From a virus, in IMG/VR virus record IMGVR_UViG_3300038548_000049, positions 1-37,075 of that record: a stretch of DNA of 37,075 nt. The stretch is one strand, 5' to 3'. This document shows, one piece after another, positions 1 through 37,075 of the stretch (position 1 is the first letter of the stretch; each line of letters starts with the position of its first letter). The notes below the pieces were generated by a model that saw only the letters and a program-made list of their open reading frames with translations, made no database searches and was not told the DNA's origin. The position numbers were made by a program, and so were the translations under genes.

Positions 1-275
1 AGCCACAGGGCGGGCAACCGCAAGGCGGCTACGCTCCTCAAGGTCAGCCACAGGGTGGACAACCGCAAGGCGGCTACGCTCCTCAAGGTCAGACACAGGG
101 TGGACAACCGCAAGGCGGCTACGCTCCTCAAGGTCAGACACAGGGTGGACAACCGCAAGGCGGCTACGCGCCTCAAGGTCAGACACAGGGTGGACAACCG
201 CAAGGCGGCTACGCTCCTCAAGGCCAACCGCAAGGACAGCAACCGACGCAGGCGCAAGACTTCCTACCACAATAA
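1..275 (+). CDS. Single-stranded DNA-binding protein (DUF2815-like), C-terminal part
   Basis: This is the 3' end of the gene that starts at 36313 and runs off the right edge. From base 3 the reading frame encodes five copies of the 15-residue unit [15 protein letters not shown] (some copies start with T). A short tail ending DFLPQ and a TAA at 273-275 follow. The same unit, in the same frame, is found at the other end of the window, so the two pieces belong to one gene on a circular map. Joining base 37075 directly to base 1 gives CAG-AAG-CCA, not a clean repeat, so one or more bases or repeat units are probably missing at the junction. The tail is uncharged apart from one Asp and resembles the flexible glutamine/glycine/proline linkers of bacterial SSBs. 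Confidence 0.85.
3..227. repeat. 45-bp tandem repeat array, left part
   Basis: Five head-to-tail 45-bp units lie at 3-47, 48-92, 93-137, 138-182 and 183-227. They differ only at a few positions: CCA or ACA at the start, GGCGGG or GGTGGA near the start, one T-to-G change in unit 4, and a diverged end in unit 5. Every unit is an exact multiple of three and is translated as part of the SSB tail. Units 2 and 3 plus one base match the last two complete units at the right edge of the window. There are no unique spacers between units. Confidence 0.95.
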
Positions 276-20039: not shown

Positions 20040-21557
20040 TTAGTGACGTCGCATAGCCGGCGCTATCTCGCTTCGGCTGTTCGTTGTCGCTCTGTATCGT
20101 AGGGCGTCGTAGTCGTGGTCTTCCTGATCCGTGTCTACGTCGTCCGGCTTTTTAGTGTCTCGCGCCAATATTGGGAAGCGCGAAATTATACCGCGCACAT
20201 TCTCGAAGAAATACAGCGCTGGGCGTTCAGGTAGTCCGCTCTCGCTCGCCTTGCCCTCGACTGCCGCTTCTAGCATTTCACACAGTACCGCCGCGCCGTT
20301 AATTCTTGACCCGGGGGACTTGTCGCTCTTTGTCCAGTATACCCCCTGTTTTGCCATTTTGTCACTAATGCTTATCTGCTCGTCGTCCTTGTTGGTGATG
20401 GAGTTATCCGCAGGGCCAGCCACTACGCCGCCCGGAGCTATGCCTGGGCTGATGTTAATCTCGCCCACAGCGTCGACACTGTTACCGGCGTCGCGCATAG
20501 CGTCGTCTATCTGCTTAACGACCTTAGCGACGTTACTCGCTGACATTTTAAGGCCTACGTTATGCTGATCAGGCTCACAGCCGTAAAACTCCCCTATCAC
20601 GAATAGCGTACCGGCTGGGTAATCTCCCTCGCCGTTAGACTCCGCGAACCATAGGTTACTGAATGGCTTAGACTCCCCCCAGTCATGTGAGCGATCCACA
20701 GCCCACCCCGAAGGTATAACGAAAGGCTTAACGACGTGTGTGGCCTCGTCCCATAGGTGATCGAAGCGCCCGCCAGCCGTAACGGACCAGTCACCCTCTA
20801 CCCACGCTTTGCGCTTGTTTGGATCTTTAATGGACTTAAGGCGGGCTATGTACATCGGATCTAGGTACTTGTTTTCGCGCCATGAGCCGTGAATAGCGAC
20901 ACGCGTTAGCGTTACCGTCTCTTCTTTGTTGGTCTGCGGGTTGGTCACTACGATATCACGGCGTTGTACTGTGCCGCGTGGTGCTGGGTCGATAAAATGT
21001 TTCTTGACCCATGAATGTCCAACACCGAAAGGGTTAGTAGTCGAGAAGCATTCTAGCGGTATCGGCGGCAGTAGCTCACCGTCCGGGAGCGGGTGATCCT
21101 GTGGTCTGAATGACGAGCGCATACAACTAAACATAGCCTCGTAAAATTCACCGTCCGCGCGTTTGGTAAGCTCATTGTGTCCGATAAAGGGGAATTCTTG
21201 CCCGTGGTAGTTCCAATACCCCGAGGCGTCCTTCTCATAGCGGAATAGTAGCTGCTCACCGCTAGGCCATACCCACATGAGTTTCGACGGGGATTCTAGG
21301 AAGCGCGCGCCGTCATTGAGCGGCTTAAACAGCTTCTTAGACTGGGCGATAATGTCGTCAAGGTTTTTAAATTCAATGTCAAAAATTACGCCTTTCCAGA
21401 ACGCGCCGTAGCCCTGGCCGACCTTGCGGTAAAACCTCATAAGCTGCGCGGCAGTCTTCCCTGGGCCGCGTGTCCCTTCGTATAATATTTCGTCACAAGG
21501 ACAGGAAAGGGCTAAACATTGCGATCCGGGTTGAGGTTTCAAGACGACGTTATACAT
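20040..21557 (-). CDS. Terminase large subunit
   Basis: 505 residues; packages DNA using ATP and cuts it to headfuls or at specific sites. The Walker A motif is GTRGPGKT (residues 28-35). A Walker B-like region is FPFIGHNELTKR, slightly divergent. The C-terminal RNase H-like nuclease contains AVDRSHDWGESKP and ends near DQEDHDYDALRY, giving the Asp residues expected at the active site. The ATG overlaps the small subunit gene by eight bases, with AAAGG upstream. The two nearly identical ends of the window inside a gene would fit circular permutation, hence headful packaging, but this is inference. Confidence 0.93.
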   Translation of the reverse strand: MYNVVLKPQPGSQCLALSCPCDEILYEGTRGPGKTAAQLMRFYRKVGQGYGAFWKGVIFDIEFKNLDDIIAQSKKLFKPLNDGARFLESPSKLMWVWPSGEQLLFRYEKDASGYWNYHGQEFPFIGHNELTKRADGEFYEAMFSCMRSSFRPQDHPLPDGELLPPIPLECFSTTNPFGVGHSWVKKHFIDPAPRGTVQRRDIVVTNPQTNKEETVTLTRVAIHGSWRENKYLDPMYIARLKSIKDPNKRKAWVEGDWSVTAGGRFDHLWDEATHVVKPFVIPSGWAVDRSHDWGESKPFSNLWFAESNGEGDYPAGTLFVIGEFYGCEPDQHNVGLKMSASNVAKVVKQIDDAMRDAGNSVDAVGEINISPGIAPGGVVAGPADNSITNKDDEQISISDKMAKQGVYWTKSDKSPGSRINGAAVLCEMLEAAVEGKASESGLPERPALYFFENVRGIISRFPILARDTKKPDDVDTDQEDHDYDALRYRATTNSRSEIAPAMRRH

Positions 21558-22161
21558 TGTTTAAGGCCTTTTCCTGTTGTTCCTGTGCGGCTTTTTCCCA
21601 GTCGTCGACACTGGTAGCGGAAGGCACTAACATAATGTTATTGGCCGAGACGGTTAGGCCGGCTTCTTTCTCCCACGCCCTAACGTCGATGTGTTTCCCG
21701 ATAAGTTCTAAGTTCTTCTGTTTGTCTGGTAGCTTAACTTTTTTCAGCAATTGGATCAGCCGCGTAGGGTCGTTACGCGCGGCGACTATCTCCCCGAAGT
21801 CCATACCGCTGATCGACGTGCGCCAAGACTTCGGCCATTCCTTGATCGGGAGTATGCCGTTCTCGTCGTCCATGATGTCGGCAATGTCTAGGCTATCAAA
21901 CTCTAAAGCACGCGTTAGAACGAAGTCAGCGTCAATCTGAAGCCTTTTATTGCGTTCTTCGACTAGTCGGGCCACTTCTATCAAAACTAGTGTGTTATGG
22001 CTATTCTCGTAGCCGCGTCGCTGGCACCCGTCACGGTTAGGCCCGTCGCTATAGCCCGCCTCTCGCGCCGCCTTAGTGGCGTTAAAGTTATGCTTTACAT
22101 ACAGTTTCGCCCATAGCTTCTGTAGCTCTGAGGCTTTCTGTCTACTAATCCTACCCGCCAT
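21550..22161 (-). CDS. Terminase small subunit
   Basis: 203 residues from the ATG at 22159-22161, which has GAGGTTCG upstream; a longer frame with 20 more residues has no ribosome-binding site. The N-terminal helix-turn-helix-like part KLWAKLYVKHNFNATKAAREAGYSDGPNRDG is the DNA-recognition domain of the terminase small-subunit (Terminase_2) family. Later parts (KKVKLPDKQKNLELIGKHIDVRAWEKEAG) match the family's oligomerisation end. It recognises the packaging site, most likely close to its own gene. It is the first gene of the leftward late operon. Confidence 0.88.
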   Translation of the reverse strand: MAGRISRQKASELQKLWAKLYVKHNFNATKAAREAGYSDGPNRDGCQRRGYENSHNTLVLIEVARLVEERNKRLQIDADFVLTRALEFDSLDIADIMDDENGILPIKEWPKSWRTSISGMDFGEIVAARNDPTRLIQLLKKVKLPDKQKNLELIGKHIDVRAWEKEAGLTVSANNIMLVPSATSVDDWEKAAQEQQEKALNNV

Positions 22162-22322
22162 GTCTCGAACCTCGATAATATGGTAAATGAGCCACCGGCT
22201 CTTAGCCACAGTGTACACCACGGCCTAACCGACCGCAACGGCGACACTCTGACGCGCCGTAGCGCCTTATAGCCGAATGGTCTAAGAGAGCCGTGCTTAT
22301 AACTGTAACACTTGAAACGTGC

Positions 22323-22553
22323 GTAACGTTACAGTAACACTTCTCCGATCGCCTACACGCCGTACTGGCTGTACGTTGTAACGTTGTAACGCTTAAAACG
22401 TCTTATAAAACGGGAGCAGGCAGGGAACCCTGCGTCCCTTCTTTCTTTATATTTTATTATTATATAGTTTAAAGGTAAAAGAAGCGTTACAACGTTACAA
22501 CCCACGCCACCACAGGGCTAGAGAGAAGCCGAGAAGTGTTACTGTAACGTTAC
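22323..22553. repeat. Nested perfect inverted repeats around one centre
   Basis: Outer arms of 23 bp at 22323-22345 and 22531-22553 are perfect reverse complements; each includes the palindrome GTAACGTTAC. Inner arms of 20 bp at 22375-22394 and 22482-22501 are also perfect complements; each has the octamer GTTGTAAC twice in tandem (or its complement). Both pairs share the same centre of symmetry, base 22438. Extra GTAAC/GTTAC copies lie at about 22305, 22559 and 22590. Such iteron-like, symmetric sites usually bind an initiator or repressor dimer or oligomer. Confidence 0.9.
22412..22444 (+). terminator. Hairpin with pyrimidine tail in the control region
   Basis: GCAGGG and CCCTGC (22420-22433) form a near-palindrome, and GGGA (22412-22415) can pair with TCCC (22435-22438) to lengthen the stem with an internal loop. 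T-rich sequence (TTCTTTCTTT) follows. It resembles a rightward terminator or attenuator, but might equally be a structured part of an origin, since it lies at the symmetric centre of the flanking repeats. Confidence 0.4.
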
Positions 22554-22654
22554 ACGAACGTAACAACCCTAGAACGTGCTGTGGCTCCTGTTACGGCGCA
22601 CCGCTATAGGGCATAAGAGAGCGCCTGATAGACCGTAAAGGTATAAAGTTTCGT

Positions 22655-22683
22655 TTGACATCGAAAAAGGCGCGGTTTATAGT
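22655..22683 (+). promoter_or_regulatory. Strong sigma70-type promoter for the rightward operon
   Basis: TTGACA (22655-22660), a 17-base spacer and TATAGT (22678-22683) make an almost consensus promoter. Transcription would begin near 22690, which excludes the upstream in-frame TTG and ATG as starts of the first gene. It drives the small genes, primase-helicase and transglycosylase-like gene to the right. Confidence 0.8.
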
Positions 22684-24048: not shown

Positions 24049-26455
24049 CCTAGCCGTACAGCTCTACGCTGCCGGGTTGGGTGTTTTTCCTTGTAGTGCA
24101 AACAAAGCCCCCGCAGTACCGAAGGGCGTAGCGTGGCAGCACGTAGCCACAGGCAACCCGCAGGGCATTAACTGGCCTAGCGGCCTAGTCGGTTTACCTA
24201 TCCCCGCCGGCGTGGTTGTCCTCGATTTAGATACCTACAAAGGTGTAACCCGCGAACAAGTGGAAGCCGTGATCGGTTGCCGCCTACCGTGGGATCAAGC
24301 GCTCATACAGACAACAATGCACGGCGGTCAGCATTACGCCTTCGCGACTACTTGGCCCGTCATCCAGGGGACTAACATAAAAGTAGAAGGCTTCGACACA
24401 AGGGTAGCGGGTAAAGGCTACATTTGTTCAGGTGAAGGCTATACGCCTGTCGGCTTCGGCCCTTACGCCATGGCACACCCTGAAAGCCTGCCCGTACTGC
24501 CTGATAGTTGCCGTAAAGTACTCGAGCACTTGCCCGCAAAGCCAACAGAACGTACGGAATTGCCGGAAGGTGACAAAGACGTAGAAACTATTAAACAGGC
24601 GCTTAGCCACATAAGCCCCGGTTGTAGCCGTAGCGAATGGCTTCGCGTCGGTCTGGCTTTACGTCACCAATTCCACGACGACGAGTCTACCGGGTTAGCA
24701 CTGTTCGACGCTTGGTCTAGTGGCCGTTTTACTGCAACCGGAGACGCGCCTGAAAACTACAGCGCCGAAACGATGGATCACCAGTGGGGCAGCTTTAAGG
24801 CAGAAGGTGGCCTGACTATAGCGACGCTATTCTACTCGGCCATATCGGCAGGCTGGACACCGCCGGCGGGGCTAGACACTTCGGCAGCATTCGGGGGCAC
24901 GGCAGCAACGGCGGGGCAGTTCGATCAAATTATCGACGATATAACCGAAAACGGCGGCAACCCTAAGAGCACGAACGCGCTGATCACGGCCATACAGGCG
25001 GTACAGTGTAACGGGCTACAACGGGGGATCTTGCTGGCGACACTTCACCGCGAGCTTAAAGAAAATGGCCTGCTAACGAAAGACGTTAAGAAGCTGCTAG
25101 AAGGTAAGAAGCCCCCACGCCCTCAAGGCGAGTACGGCGCGAACCACACCGAAAACGCCACCGTATTTATAGACACACACTACCCTAACGGGACAATATG
25201 CCGCAGTCAGCAGGTATGGTACGTGTTTAACGGTAAGGCGTGGGAGCAACGCGAAGACGAGGACATAGCGCACGAAGTCGCGATCGCACTGGCCCCGAGT
25301 ATGCCTCAAGTGGCGGTTGTAACCGGTACGGCTACCATGATGCGGTTACTAGCTACGAACCTCACTAAGAAGATCGGCGACATTCCCGAAGGCATAGTAC
25401 TTATGCAAAACGGCGCGCTAGATCTGAACACGGGCAGGCTAACCGGTCATCATAAAGATTATTTTACAACTAACATTCTACCGTACAGCTATAACATTCA
25501 AGCACGGAGCGCCGAGTGGGGCCAGTTTATGTGGGACGCCTTCGAAGGGGACGAAGAGCGGATCGACCTACTGCAGGAATGGTTCGGCTATATGATGTCT
25601 AGTAGCTACGATTATCAAAAAGTTATGTTACTGCTAGGGCCTAAACGTTGCGGTAAGGGCACGATAGGCCGAGTGCTGAAACTGCTAGTAGGCGAACAGA
25701 ACTACACCGGCGGGACGTTAACCAGCTTCGCGCGTGATTCCTTCATCGAAAGCCTACGCACTAAAACGGTAATGTTTATCGGTGATGCGGCGAAAAACAT
25801 ACCGCGCGGCGTTGTCGACTACGTAGTGGAACGCGTCAAGGGGATCAGCGGTTGCGACGATCAGACATTCGACCGGAAATACAAGTCGACACTGTCCGAG
25901 CAACTGCCTACCCGCATTACGATAGCGGGCAACCACGTACCGAGGCTTTTCGACGACTCGGGCGCGTTGGCCTCCCGTTTGGTTGTGTTGCCTATGAACG
26001 TCTCATGGTATGGCCGAGAAGACCCGACTCTCTTCGGCCGCTTAGTCCAGGATATCGAGGGGATCGCCATTTGGGCGCTACAGGGCTTAGCCCGTCTCAA
26101 CCAGAACGGCCGCTTCACCATACCCGCGGCAAGTCAAGCCGAAACGGACTACATAAGCGAAGCATACAGCCCGTTAAGAATGTTCTTAGACTCGGCCTGC
26201 ATAATGGGCGGCGTTGAATTTGTAAGCGCCGAGGACGTTTACTCGACGTATAAAGCGTGGGCGGTACTAAACCAAGAAGACCACATACTACCGCGCCGTA
26301 CGTTTATCGGATCATTTAAAGACTTAACCCGAGGTACGGGCATAATATACGGCCCCCACAGAACACCGGGCGCGTCGCCGGTCCGGGGGTTTAAAGGCTT
26401 AACACTTCGACAACTCGGCCAAGGCGGCAGCATACCGCTAACAGCTGTTAAATAA
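24038..26455 (+). CDS. Primase-polymerase / SF3 helicase (D5-type)
   Basis: 805 residues; makes primers and unwinds DNA at the fork. N-terminal archaeo-eukaryotic primase domain: VVLDLDTYKG (D63 and D65), GGQHYAF (H99), and EGFDTRVAGKGYI with D120 and R122, the three catalytic motifs. A middle linker region (about 190-250) resembles primase C-terminal domains. The C-terminal helicase has Walker A GPKRCGKGT (534-542) and Walker B VMFIGD (D583), followed by arginine-rich motifs and IAGNHVP (a motif C-like 'GN'). It starts by overlapping the preceding gene. Expressed from the promoter at 22655, it is a candidate to load at the symmetric repeats close by. Confidence 0.92.
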   Translation: MINNLAVQLYAAGLGVFPCSANKAPAVPKGVAWQHVATGNPQGINWPSGLVGLPIPAGVVVLDLDTYKGVTREQVEAVIGCRLPWDQALIQTTMHGGQHYAFATTWPVIQGTNIKVEGFDTRVAGKGYICSGEGYTPVGFGPYAMAHPESLPVLPDSCRKVLEHLPAKPTERTELPEGDKDVETIKQALSHISPGCSRSEWLRVGLALRHQFHDDESTGLALFDAWSSGRFTATGDAPENYSAETMDHQWGSFKAEGGLTIATLFYSAISAGWTPPAGLDTSAAFGGTAATAGQFDQIIDDITENGGNPKSTNALITAIQAVQCNGLQRGILLATLHRELKENGLLTKDVKKLLEGKKPPRPQGEYGANHTENATVFIDTHYPNGTICRSQQVWYVFNGKAWEQREDEDIAHEVAIALAPSMPQVAVVTGTATMMRLLATNLTKKIGDIPEGIVLMQNGALDLNTGRLTGHHKDYFTTNILPYSYNIQARSAEWGQFMWDAFEGDEERIDLLQEWFGYMMSSSYDYQKVMLLLGPKRCGKGTIGRVLKLLVGEQNYTGGTLTSFARDSFIESLRTKTVMFIGDAAKNIPRGVVDYVVERVKGISGCDDQTFDRKYKSTLSEQLPTRITIAGNHVPRLFDDSGALASRLVVLPMNVSWYGREDPTLFGRLVQDIEGIAIWALQGLARLNQNGRFTIPAASQAETDYISEAYSPLRMFLDSACIMGGVEFVSAEDVYSTYKAWAVLNQEDHILPRRTFIGSFKDLTRGTGIIYGPHRTPGASPVRGFKGLTLRQLGQGGSIPLTAVK

Positions 26456-27961: not shown

Positions 27962-28117
27962 ATGAGCACAGAACACGAAGCGATCAGATATGGCGACGAG
28001 TACCAGTGCTCTAAGTGTGGCAAAGCTTGGGAAGTTAACGACCCGGAGCCGCCGCCATGCAAAACAGGCGCGGACCACTTACGCGATATAAGGGCTAAAC
28101 TACGTGAATCTAAATGA
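27962..28117 (+). CDS. Small zinc-finger-like protein
   Basis: 51 residues. YQCSKCGKAWEV (CxxC) is followed by PPPCKTGADHL (Cys and His), giving a CxxC-C-H arrangement that could bind zinc. The C-terminal half is a basic helix (LRDIRAKLRESK). It sits alone in a short gap before the coiled-coil/HTH gene and overlaps it by 14 bases. No particular function is recognised. Confidence 0.6.
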   Translation: MSTEHEAIRYGDEYQCSKCGKAWEVNDPEPPPCKTGADHLRDIRAKLRESK

Positions 28118-28451
28118 GTTTTTCTCGTTAAAAGACAGGGTCGCCGAGTTAGAAGCCGAGGTCGAGACGCTTAAAAACCGTATACGCACGGAGCAGAAAG
28201 CGAAAAGCAAATGGCGTACCCGCTACGAGGCTGTTAAGCCTGCCGCAAAGTCCCGTAGGTTAGCCAAAAACCAAAAAGCTTACGATATGATAGCGCAAAG
28301 AGAAGCCGGCGAAATAGACGCCACACTGGCCGATATTGGCCGAGAATGTGGCGTTAACTACGGCACGCTTAAGCACATGGCTTACGAATACCGCCAGTGC
28401 CTTAAGGTAACGGCAGATCCAGTTCCCCTTCATACCAAGTCAACAAACTAG
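28104..28451 (+). CDS. Coiled-coil and helix-turn-helix protein
   Basis: 115 residues from GTG 28104, whose ribosome-binding site is the weak TAAGGG. A heptad run (LKDRVAELEAEVETLKNRIRTEQKAK, residues 9-34) forms a coiled coil, followed by a basic stretch and then a likely HTH: EIDATLADIGRECGVNYGTLKHMAYEYRQ (about 72-100). Dimeric DNA binding is likely. It is the last gene of this rightward operon; its end overlaps the convergent structural gene by 50 bases. A transcription regulator or replication initiator co-factor is possible. Confidence 0.65.
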   Translation: MNLNEFFSLKDRVAELEAEVETLKNRIRTEQKAKSKWRTRYEAVKPAAKSRRLAKNQKAYDMIAQREAGEIDATLADIGRECGVNYGTLKHMAYEYRQCLKVTADPVPLHTKSTN

Positions 28452-28977
28452 TTATGTCTTGGGGCATAGTGTCTAGAGAGATAATTCTAAAAAGGTAAAT
28501 TGTGTTAGGTTTTAGTAGCTTTTCTCTACCGATGACTGCACCCGACGTACCTTTCCCTTGAATCGAGGTATTACCAACTAAGTGATCAGGGGCAAAGGCC
28601 AAAGTTCCAACGTCTGTGACTGTTGCGCCAACTACTATTTGAGATAGCCCAGTAACAGGGTTTATATCTGACGCGTTTTGATACGGAACTGACGCACCCC
28701 CCGTATAGGTTGCCCCTGTGTATATTTCAGCGGTTACACCCTCACCAGTAAAGCCAATAACCCTACCTTTTAACGCTACAGGTAACGCCCCAGTTACAAA
28801 CATCGTATCATTTACAGCTAAGCCCGCTACAGCTACAAGTCGAGTTGACCCCTCATGCTCTACGCCTAGCTTCGAATTCGCTTCGGTGTATGACTGGACC
28901 GTTAGCGCCCTTGTGCCCGCCGCGATCCCCTCGGGGAAAGCTTCTTCTAATATGCGGTTTCGTGTTCTCTTATGCAT
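28402..28977 (-). CDS. Virion-type structural protein embedded in the early region
   Basis: 191 residues; GGAGGG before the ATG. It has an all-beta character, with YTEANSKLGVEHEGSTRLVAVAGL, an EGVTAEIYTGATYTGG middle, and an end LLKPNTIYLFRIISLDTMPQDITSLLTWYEGE. The last motif, 'LKPNT-Y-hydrophobic-R-h-S ... L-x-W-Y-E', is typical of a family of phage head or tail structural proteins. It is the only structural-looking gene outside the late operon, faces leftward, overlaps the plus-strand gene, and lies beyond a terminator for the genes above it. It probably has its own promoter, not identified. A capsid fibre or decoration protein is likely. Confidence 0.55.
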   Translation of the reverse strand: MHKRTRNRILEEAFPEGIAAGTRALTVQSYTEANSKLGVEHEGSTRLVAVAGLAVNDTMFVTGALPVALKGRVIGFTGEGVTAEIYTGATYTGGASVPYQNASDINPVTGLSQIVVGATVTDVGTLAFAPDHLVGNTSIQGKGTSGAVIGREKLLKPNTIYLFRIISLDTMPQDITSLLTWYEGELDLPLP

Positions 28978-29017
28978 GTTGTACCCTCCATAGGTTCCGC
29001 AATAAGTATACGCCCAT

Positions 29018-29040
29018 AAAAAAGCCCCGTAAACGGGGGC
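29018..29040 (-). terminator. Rho-independent terminator of the leftward early operon
   Basis: In the minus-strand reading GCCCCCGTTTACGGGGC forms a stem of at least five G-C pairs (plus 29025-29029 with 29034-29038, extended by 29024 with 29040). It is followed directly by TTTTTT (plus 29023-29018). It overlaps the stop of the zinc-ribbon gene and ends the operon that begins near 34241. Confidence 0.85.
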
Positions 29041-29231
29041 TAGACTTTAGAACCGCAGCGGCAACACCGCCAACCGCCGAAACTGACGGACGACAGAAAC
29101 CAGATAGGCAACCACAAGCCGGCGGTAATAACTGTTAAGATTAAATGTAAAATGTGGTTAGGTCCGGGGCGTTCCGCCATAACCTTTTCTTTGCAGTGTT
29201 TGCACAGCTTACTAGTTTTTTGAGTCGCCAT
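29040..29231 (-). CDS. Small zinc-ribbon membrane protein
   Basis: 63 residues. CKHC (10-13) and CRCGS (56-60, after another Cys) flank a hydrophobic segment HILHLILTVITAGLWLPIWFL. This 'CxxC - membrane helix - CxxC' plan is that of LITAF-type zinc ribbons and of small proteins found in several phages. It is the last gene before a terminator. The role is unknown; a membrane-located host interaction protein is a guess. GGGGG upstream supports the ATG. Confidence 0.65.
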   Translation of the reverse strand: MATQKTSKLCKHCKEKVMAERPGPNHILHLILTVITAGLWLPIWFLSSVSFGGWRCCRCGSKV

Positions 29232-29499
29232 TGTGACCCCCTTCGTTACGGGTTAGTTTAGTAACCCCGTCACACTCTTTGATCTGTTCAACAATAAGCG
29301 CCACGGCGTTAAGCGTTTTTAGTGTACGTTTAAAATTCTTCTCGTCCACGTCATTCAGCATGGCAGACATATCTAACGGTCGGCCCTTACATAGGTGATC
29401 GACAAGCGCGCCGATCTTATTCTCGCTTTTAATGCTGGTCAGCGAGAGAAGAAGCGCGACCCGGCGTTCCGACTCTAGGCCGGGGCATAAGACGTTCAC
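29212..29499 (-). CDS. PapB-like putative regulator
   Basis: 95 residues from GTG 29497-29499, which overlaps the upstream TGA (GTGA) and has GGGGG upstream. A longer in-frame start is unlikely. The core VALLLSLTSIKSENKIGALVDHLCKGRPLD, followed by a further helix pair ending in LNAVALIVEQIKE, resembles the PapB/FocB family of small fimbrial regulators ('LL.L..I.S.K...AL..YL..G'). If right it may bind AT-rich host or phage DNA. The match is weak by eye and the C-terminal tail (Asn/Gly/Lys-rich) is unlike the family. Confidence 0.45.
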   Translation of the reverse strand: MNVLCPGLESERRVALLLSLTSIKSENKIGALVDHLCKGRPLDMSAMLNDVDEKNFKRTLKTLNAVALIVEQIKECDGVTKLTRNEGGHNGDSKN

Positions 29500-36312: not shown

Positions 36313-37075
36313 ATGATATTCGACGACAAACATGTAAAAATTCACGGCTGTTTCATCGTATGGGACGGGATCACACGCCCGGAACAAGGTCACGACGGCA
36401 AGCCTAAGTACAGCTTGAAAGTGGTAGTAAACCCGAATAACCCTGATCTAGCTGACATGAATAACTTAGCTAACACCACGTTACAAACGTCTAAGTTTCG
36501 CGGTCAGTTACCCGCCGGCGGTCGTATGCCAATCGGTCAGGCACGCCCCGACGAGTTTAACAACCTGTACCCGGGCTGGGTAGTTCTTGGCTGTAACACG
36601 CAACGTCTACCCGACGTCTACGACGAAAACGGCGGCAAGTTGGACCCTATGCAGTACGGCCCTATGCTGTTCGGAGCGCAACAAGTAGACGTACTAGTCC
36701 ATTGTTACGAGTACGACGCGAAGGGTAACAAAGGTATAGCGACCGGGCTAGACGCTTTTAGTATCATCGTAAGCGCTAACGCGGTGCCTCAAAACTTCGG
36801 CGGCGCTGGTATCGCAACTCAGGGCGCATTCGGTCCAAGCGGCGCAGCTCCACAGGGCGGGCAACCGCAAGGCGGCTACGCTCCTCAAGGTCAGCCACAG
36901 GGCGGGCAACCGCAAGGCGGCTACGCTCCTCAAGGTCAGCCACAGGGTGGACAACCGCAAGGCGGCTACGCTCCTCAAGGTCAGCCACAGGGTGGACAAC
37001 CGCAAGGCGGCTACGCTCCTCAAGGTCAGACACAGGGTGGACAACCGCAAGGCGGCTACGCTCCTCAAGGTCAGA
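36313..37075 (+). CDS. Single-stranded DNA-binding protein (DUF2815-like), N-terminal part
   Basis: Starts ATG 36313, three bases after the nuclease stop, and runs off the right edge; its end is at 1-275. The first 160 residues ([54 protein letters not shown], and [14 protein letters not shown]) have the character of DUF2815/gp2.5-like OB-fold SSBs. The remainder is a series of 15-residue [15 protein letters not shown] units, at least five on this side. The role is coating single-stranded DNA at the fork; the low-complexity tail may mediate protein contacts or self-association. The complete length is unknown because the repeat number at the junction is uncertain. Confidence 0.85.
36850..37074. 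repeat. 45-bp tandem repeat array, right part
   Basis: Five complete 45-bp units at 36850-36894, 36895-36939, 36940-36984, 36985-37029 and 37030-37074, with one further base. Units 1-2 read GGCGGG near the start and 3-5 GGTGGA; unit 5 begins ACA like the later units of the left part. All are in frame with the SSB gene. Codon choice is nearly fixed between copies, so the array expanded recently or is homogenised by recombination. Confidence 0.95.

Follow-up and report, generated by a model that had tools for sequence, protein, structure and literature searches.

Replication origins of the PICI/SaPI satellites contain oppositely oriented repeats that load two head-to-head helicases, like SV40 (PMC9894130), and the SaPI Rep protein, apparently in the form of two hexamers, uses its C-terminal domain to bind the iterons (PMC7581432). 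This layout has been said to be shared by no other known bacterial replicon (PMC6092414). Here we describe an iteron array of this kind in the window, i.e., the whole 37,075-nt stretch analyzed, which is an IMG/VR virus record of a tailed phage that carries structural genes of its own. The array is very probably the replication origin of this phage, as the first-pass annotation had offered as one of two functions, and this reading is strongly supported by the conserved geometry, the gene neighborhood, covariation with the C-terminus of the helicase, and published origin architecture.

Structure of the Iteron Array

The components of the array are as follows.

22305..22594, no strand: full extent of the candidate origin array, dyad center 22438, with 13 GTAAC/GTTAC iterons
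22323..22345, + strand: left outer arm, 23 nt, with GTAAC at 22323, GTTAC at 22328, and GTAAC at 22334
22375..22394, + strand: left inner arm, 20 nt, with two direct GTAAC iterons (22378 and 22386) at a spacing of 8 bp
22395..22481, no strand: core between the inner arms, with an AT-rich right half; right side conserved with the relative L004
22422..22439, + strand: small terminator-like hairpin
22482..22501, - strand: right inner arm, 20 nt, with two inverted GTTAC iterons (22486 and 22494) at a spacing of 8 bp
22531..22553, - strand: right outer arm, 23 nt, with GTTAC at 22538, GTAAC at 22544, and GTTAC at 22549

The 23-nt and 20-nt arm pairs are 100% complementary and both centered on 22438.0, exactly as the first-pass annotation had described them, and this center is unique in the 37-kb window for perfect inverted repeats of at least 14 nt within 1 kb. 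The palindrome attributed to each outer arm, GTAACGTTAC, has two copies in the window, confined to the outer arms, and the octamer attributed to the inner arms, GTTGTAAC, is found there in tandem. The high density of GTAAC/GTTAC pentamers noted earlier also stands, with the count corrected from about 12 to 13 (22305–22594), whereas the richest other 300-bp window contains 5. Among 2000 dinucleotide-preserving shuffles of 22222–22654, none contained any pentamer 13 times (shuffle maximum 12), and complementary 8-mers on one center, of which 29 were observed, never exceeded 6. The symmetry had been thought to extend over 231 bases; this holds for the arms but not for the 29-bp spacers separating outer arm from inner arm on each side (matches at only 10 of 29 positions), so that the symmetry is limited to the arms, and these form separate islands.

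The inner pairs are oriented > > and < <, giving two iteron sets in opposite orientation as in the PICI/SaPI layout, and the outer sites are mixed. The right outer arm lies 44 bp past the inner pair, with equal spacing in L004 and the R9Y phages. The GC content is 22% in the 60-bp window from 22438, and the AT-rich right half of the core is the likely melting site. Both the hairpin and the AT-rich tract reported inside the array are present, but L004, the closest relative, lacks the hairpin. The perfect 23-bp identity could possibly have arisen by quasi-palindrome correction, the right outer arm being copied into the left one. When used as a nucleotide query against phage records, the region itself gave no match, and the GC skew of the window, which is confounded by gene direction, gave no support either way for an origin.

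Genomic Context

The neighboring features are listed below.

21550..22221, - strand: terminase small subunit terS (Terminase_2), left neighbor, outside the element
22655..22683, + strand: sigma-70-like promoter TTGACA-17-TATAGT of the early/replication operon, 11/12 matches, conserved in L004
23639..23812, + strand: HTH_17 (excisionase-family) small protein, 57 aa
24038..26455, + strand: primase-helicase, 805 aa, with Prim-Pol, PriCT_2, D5_N, and DUF5906 (primase_Cterm) domains
26174..26413, + strand: C-terminal winged-helix domain of the primase-helicase, approximately residues 713–792, predicted fold

The array is located 5' of the operon, ~1.5 kb upstream of the primase-helicase start, and is followed rightward by the promoter at 22655, small genes, HTH_17, and the primase-helicase. 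The latter matches the NCBIfam family "phage/plasmid primase, P4 family", and no match to a Toprim (DnaG-type) primase was found in it. An HTH_17 gene precedes the primase-helicase gene in 21 of the 22 relatives examined, and TTGAC occurs downstream of the array in most relatives too. On the left, the terminase subunits (20040–22221) and a long leftward gene block distinguish the record from a satellite without a full structural set. No second iteron cluster, such as the second site of P4, was seen in the 37-kb window.

Both ends of the window (4–223 and 36850–37074) consist of the same 45-bp tandem repeat, coding for a protein repeat; the record was thus probably cut inside one repetitive gene, and the window is probably a circular or permuted, near-complete genome. 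Over two leftward ORFs (561 and 305 aa) in the segment 5001–7000, the GC content is 41–43%, compared with ~52% elsewhere; this may be a receptor-binding or tail gene acquired recently.

Conservation of Array Geometry in Related Phages

The primase-helicase of the closest relative, L004, is 86% identical to that of the window. Its 20-bp inner arms are identical at 20/20 positions and the right outer motif is kept, whereas the left outer arm is not. The left outer sites in L004 are located at -102.5, -112.5, and -122.5 from the center, with the mirror positions being +101.5, +112.5, and +123.5; hence L004 retains the mirror geometry but not the exact 23-bp identity. Absence of the arms from close relatives, named by the first-pass annotation as evidence against its proposal, is therefore observed for the perfect left outer arm but not for the mirrored sites.

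Alteromonas phages R9Y1-3 (~46% identical) also have GTAAC iterons, and their right-hand spacings (8, 44, 6, 5, and 12) are nearly those of the window (8, 44, 6, 5, and 11). In R9Y1, the array is located at 28821–29250 of record OM287554. The same layout is built of GTGAC in L005 (= L100) and of GTCAC in L101, and the cores in more distant phages are GTTGC, GTGGTC, GTAGT, TGTTGT, GTGCCC, and GTGCAC. The layout of the relatives comprises an iteron pair 8–9 bp apart, a gap of ~90–112 bp, an inverted pair, and ~44 bp to the outer sites, which are stepped by ~11 bp. Scored by rule, the right inner pair with a spacing of 8–10 was found in 19/19 phages (window included), and the next site was located 41–47 bp past the inner pair in 13 of these 19, against 0.62 expected from shuffled flanks. 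L099 and L106 are two-sided as well, with 43–44 bp on both sides. Many relatives carry a putative half-origin whole on just one side, and the mirror-symmetric array is its two-sided version.

An initial automatic geometry scan, in which all four inner sites had to carry identical 5-mers, matched the window, L004, the R9Y group, L100, and L101 (background 5/284 chunks) and missed relatives whose inner sites differ by one base. No obvious array was seen in the stretch examined upstream of the gene in L102, L103, L112, L113, L120, L089 (Vibrio phage 97.13), and L159 (Alteromonas prophage). An AT-rich tract upstream of the primase-helicase is also not obvious in L102, L103, L112, L113, and L120, whose origin may be elsewhere. 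The left-hand neighbor, terS in the window, is in relatives an Imm5-like gene, a gene with a weak HK97-gp10-like match, or unknown; it varies, whereas the array moves together with the HTH_17 and primase-helicase module.

Candidate Initiator and Iteron-Reading Domain

The iteron class follows the helicase, or C-terminal, half of the primase-helicase (permutation p 0.0002; partial r 0.69 when controlling for the Prim-Pol half), a covariation that is strong but not conclusive, since assignment to classes was made by eye among sequences that share ancestry. No covariation of the iteron class was detected with the Prim-Pol half (p 0.12) or with HTH_17 (p 0.39), and the similarity of the Prim-Pol half to that of the window is 0.45 in phages both with and without GTNAC iterons. 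Among the proteins proposed earlier as binders, the 57-residue HTH_17 protein is thus disfavored, the 115-residue HTH protein (28104–28451) shows no convincing DNA-binding family, and the primase-helicase is favored by the covariation of its C-terminal half and by its predicted fold.

In the full-length model of the primase-helicase (pLDDT 81, pTM 0.47), the helicase half aligns with the SaPI5 primase-helicase 7OLA (TMt 0.65–0.74), and D5-like viral helicases match too. The model of the C-terminal 126 residues (680–805; pLDDT 75) resembles two DNA-binding domains, that of RFX (Z 10.4) and the origin-binding domain 1KA8 of phage P4 (Z 9.5, rmsd 2.9, 85 residues). Although the winged-helix fold is widespread, the RFX and P4 matches head the structure list, and a C-terminal winged-helix origin-binding domain of the P4 type is present on the predicted model. 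Family, fold, and covariation agree in predicting a self-loading helicase with a C-terminal iteron-binding domain. The primase-helicase is probably the initiator, and its modeled C-terminal winged helix is probably the iteron reader.

In L090, L091, L092, L093, L094, L113, L115, and L116, the Prim-Pol half is common (45–60% identity) and the helicase half is unrelated, a series of natural module swaps within a single gene; in some relatives with the shared Prim-Pol half, the helicase half is distant rather than unrelated. Three of these Prim-Pol primase-helicase homologues (L092 1382–3757, L093 1386–3761, and L090 1781–4126; VP16C, VP16T, and PY6) are labeled "putative integrase" in public records, which is a probable misannotation.

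Occurrence of the Array Pattern in Viral Sequences

Viral sequences were scanned for the pattern GTAAC-N3-GTAAC-N(80-110)-GTTAC-N3-GTTAC, which was found in at least 120 viral stretches, compared with 10 for the backwards-read core CAATG; the GTGAC pattern was found in 109. The flipped GTTAC..GTAAC pattern (L333–L449; at least 120 viral stretches), intended as a negative control, is as enriched as the original, with neighbors and spacing alike among the matches listed. It looks like another orientation of one design, and the reversed core CAATG was used as the control instead. A primase-helicase-like ORF was present within 2 kb, among the matches listed, at 62/97 nonredundant loci for GTAAC, 53/97 for the flipped pattern, and 41/91 for GTGAC, all compared with 1/9 for the reversed core; as the reference set of such ORFs was built from the GTAAC loci themselves, the GTGAC and flipped sets provide the cleaner tests. 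The median distance from array to ORF among the matches listed is 74–80 bp, mostly at the ORF 3' end.

Proteins at representative loci contain D5_N/DUF5906/Pox_D5, DUF927 with Cch HTH_56, VapE-like, or Toprim_3 with AAA_25 domains, and others contain Prim-Pol with AAA_25, Zn_Ribbon_Prim, or NrS-1 HBD domains. L204 and L226 keep the iteron geometry beside Toprim_3 and AAA_25 proteins, a helicase type other than D5. In all three real sets, the sites outside the inner pairs peak at ~43, 55, 66, and 75 bp among the matches listed, which is apparent helical phasing across different initiators. These observations make it fairly likely that a single origin design is common to different viral replication-helicase families (D5/SF3, DUF927-Cch, VapE-like, Toprim/AAA_25, and NrS-1-like initiators), with a fixed pentamer spacing (8 bp, a melt of ~80–110 bp, 8 bp, 43 bp, then steps of ~11 bp) and letters diverging with the initiator C-terminus. 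Since the letters diverge and the geometry is fixed, the spacing would be set by the shape of the loading double ring.

Alternative Functions of the Array

The array separates the leftward structural block from the rightward early operon, a strong promoter is present at 22655, and a conserved HTH_17 gene lies nearby, as would suit an operator. In this reading, the pentamers would be bound by HTH_17 or a different phage repressor that governs both divergent operons, early and late, and looping would account for the symmetry. A single operator for both operons was the other function proposed by the first-pass annotation. We consider it very unlikely: the iteron class covaries with the helicase half and not with HTH_17, the left-hand gene differs among relatives, terminase relatives lack the array, and hundreds of other loci have the array 3' of the helicase gene, where a shared promoter is not expected. 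Autoregulation may nevertheless be a second role of the array. Its position directly upstream of terS also raises the idea of a pac site recognized by the adjacent terminase small subunit, to which we assign a next to negligible probability. In 25 phages with related large terminases, most of them 66–78% identical, there are 0–4 pentamers per 300 bp upstream of terS, compared with 13 here, which argues against a packaging site, and the array occurs without a terS neighbor, e.g., in L005.

The arms could also constitute one large single-strand stem-loop that is recognized by the primase-helicase in place of double-stranded iterons. The inner stem would measure 20 bp, with an 87-nt loop, and the origin of pRN1, whose protein combines AEP, SF3, and winged-helix domains, has a 21-nt stem and a 58-nt loop; such an origin was also put forward for certain phages (PMC4234260). 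Folding of the strand is much stronger than that of its shuffles (z -7.7), as must hold for any inverted repeat. However, the left pair in L100 and L101 has a spacing of 9 and the right pair one of 8, which would place a bulge in the stem and leave the pentamers intact; the outer arms are not complementary in L004; and the conserved feature is single sites at helical steps. This pRN1-like form of the origin is thus highly improbable, and the hairpin as the functional form was rejected on the left/right spacing.

Proposed Mechanism and Implications

The origin reading starts from two sets of oriented pentamers that oppose one another on either side of an AT-rich tract; their spacing is conserved, and the HTH_17 and primase-helicase operon lies downstream. 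From the observed symmetry, spacing, covariation, and fold matches we infer the following course of initiation. The C-terminal winged helix of the primase-helicase would bind the iterons on double-stranded DNA, with the outer sites lying on one helix face in ~11-bp steps, and each side of the array would nucleate one helicase ring. The two opposed rings would melt the AT-rich tract, after which the Prim-Pol domain would prime and the host polymerase would extend both ways, resulting in bidirectional replication. The initiator bound near the early promoter at 22655 may also autoregulate the operon.

The scans suggest that the satellite-type origin layout is common in full phages. Its presence in tailed phages contrasts with the claim of PMC6092414, a comparison made within open-access text, so that prior reports may exist. 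The pattern amounts to a simple rule by which phage origins may be located from sequence, and it predicts the protein domain reading them. Phages in which the Prim-Pol half is constant and both the helicase half and the iterons differ represent a domain-swap series supplied by nature for initiator specificity, and the conserved 43/55/66-bp spacing is a testable constraint on the loading of two helicase rings.

Comparison with Known Replication Systems

Several described systems share parts of this organization. In phage P4, as in the window, one protein (alpha) comprises a primase, a helicase, and a C-terminal origin-binding domain, and the modeled domain of the window resembles that of P4 (1KA8); however, the alpha primase is of the bacterial Toprim type (PMC4234260), whereas the window protein has Prim-Pol and PriCT_2, and P4 has a second site, for which no counterpart cluster was seen in the window. 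The pRN1 protein ORF904 similarly combines an AEP primase, an SF3 helicase, and a winged helix, and its origin has inverted arms around an unpaired center (PMC4234260), but that origin is 3' of the gene and is described without iterons, unlike the 5', iteron-made array of the window. The putative origin of SCCmec Cch2 involves a D5-type helicase that binds short direct repeats through its C-terminal domain (PMC7581432); it differs in having only three iterons (AAGTG) located 3' of the gene and a helicase without a fused primase. The Prim-Pol of phage NrS-1 also has a helicase domain that forms rings, and its initiation is sequence-specific (PMC8718748), whereas its motifs as given in the accessible part of that source, TTTGGTTA and GTG, are single-strand priming signals, and no mirrored array is described there. 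The accessible part of the R9Y phage paper describes no origin.

The closest likeness is to the PICI/SaPI origins (SaPIbov1, SaPI5, and EcCICFT073), as compared by published description rather than by sequence: opposite sets of short iterons flank an AT-rich region (PMC6092414, PMC7581432, PMC9894130), and the initiator is a self-loading helicase, the SaPI5 primase-helicase being of the same D5 family as that of the window. In these satellites, however, the origin is immediately 3' of rep, whereas the array of the window lies 5' of its operon, belongs to a tailed phage with structural genes, and has a near-perfect two-fold dyad. Since the layout and the initiator fit, and the tailed phage and the 5' array do not, the locus is best described as a probable PICI/SaPI-like origin in a phage and not as a PICI.
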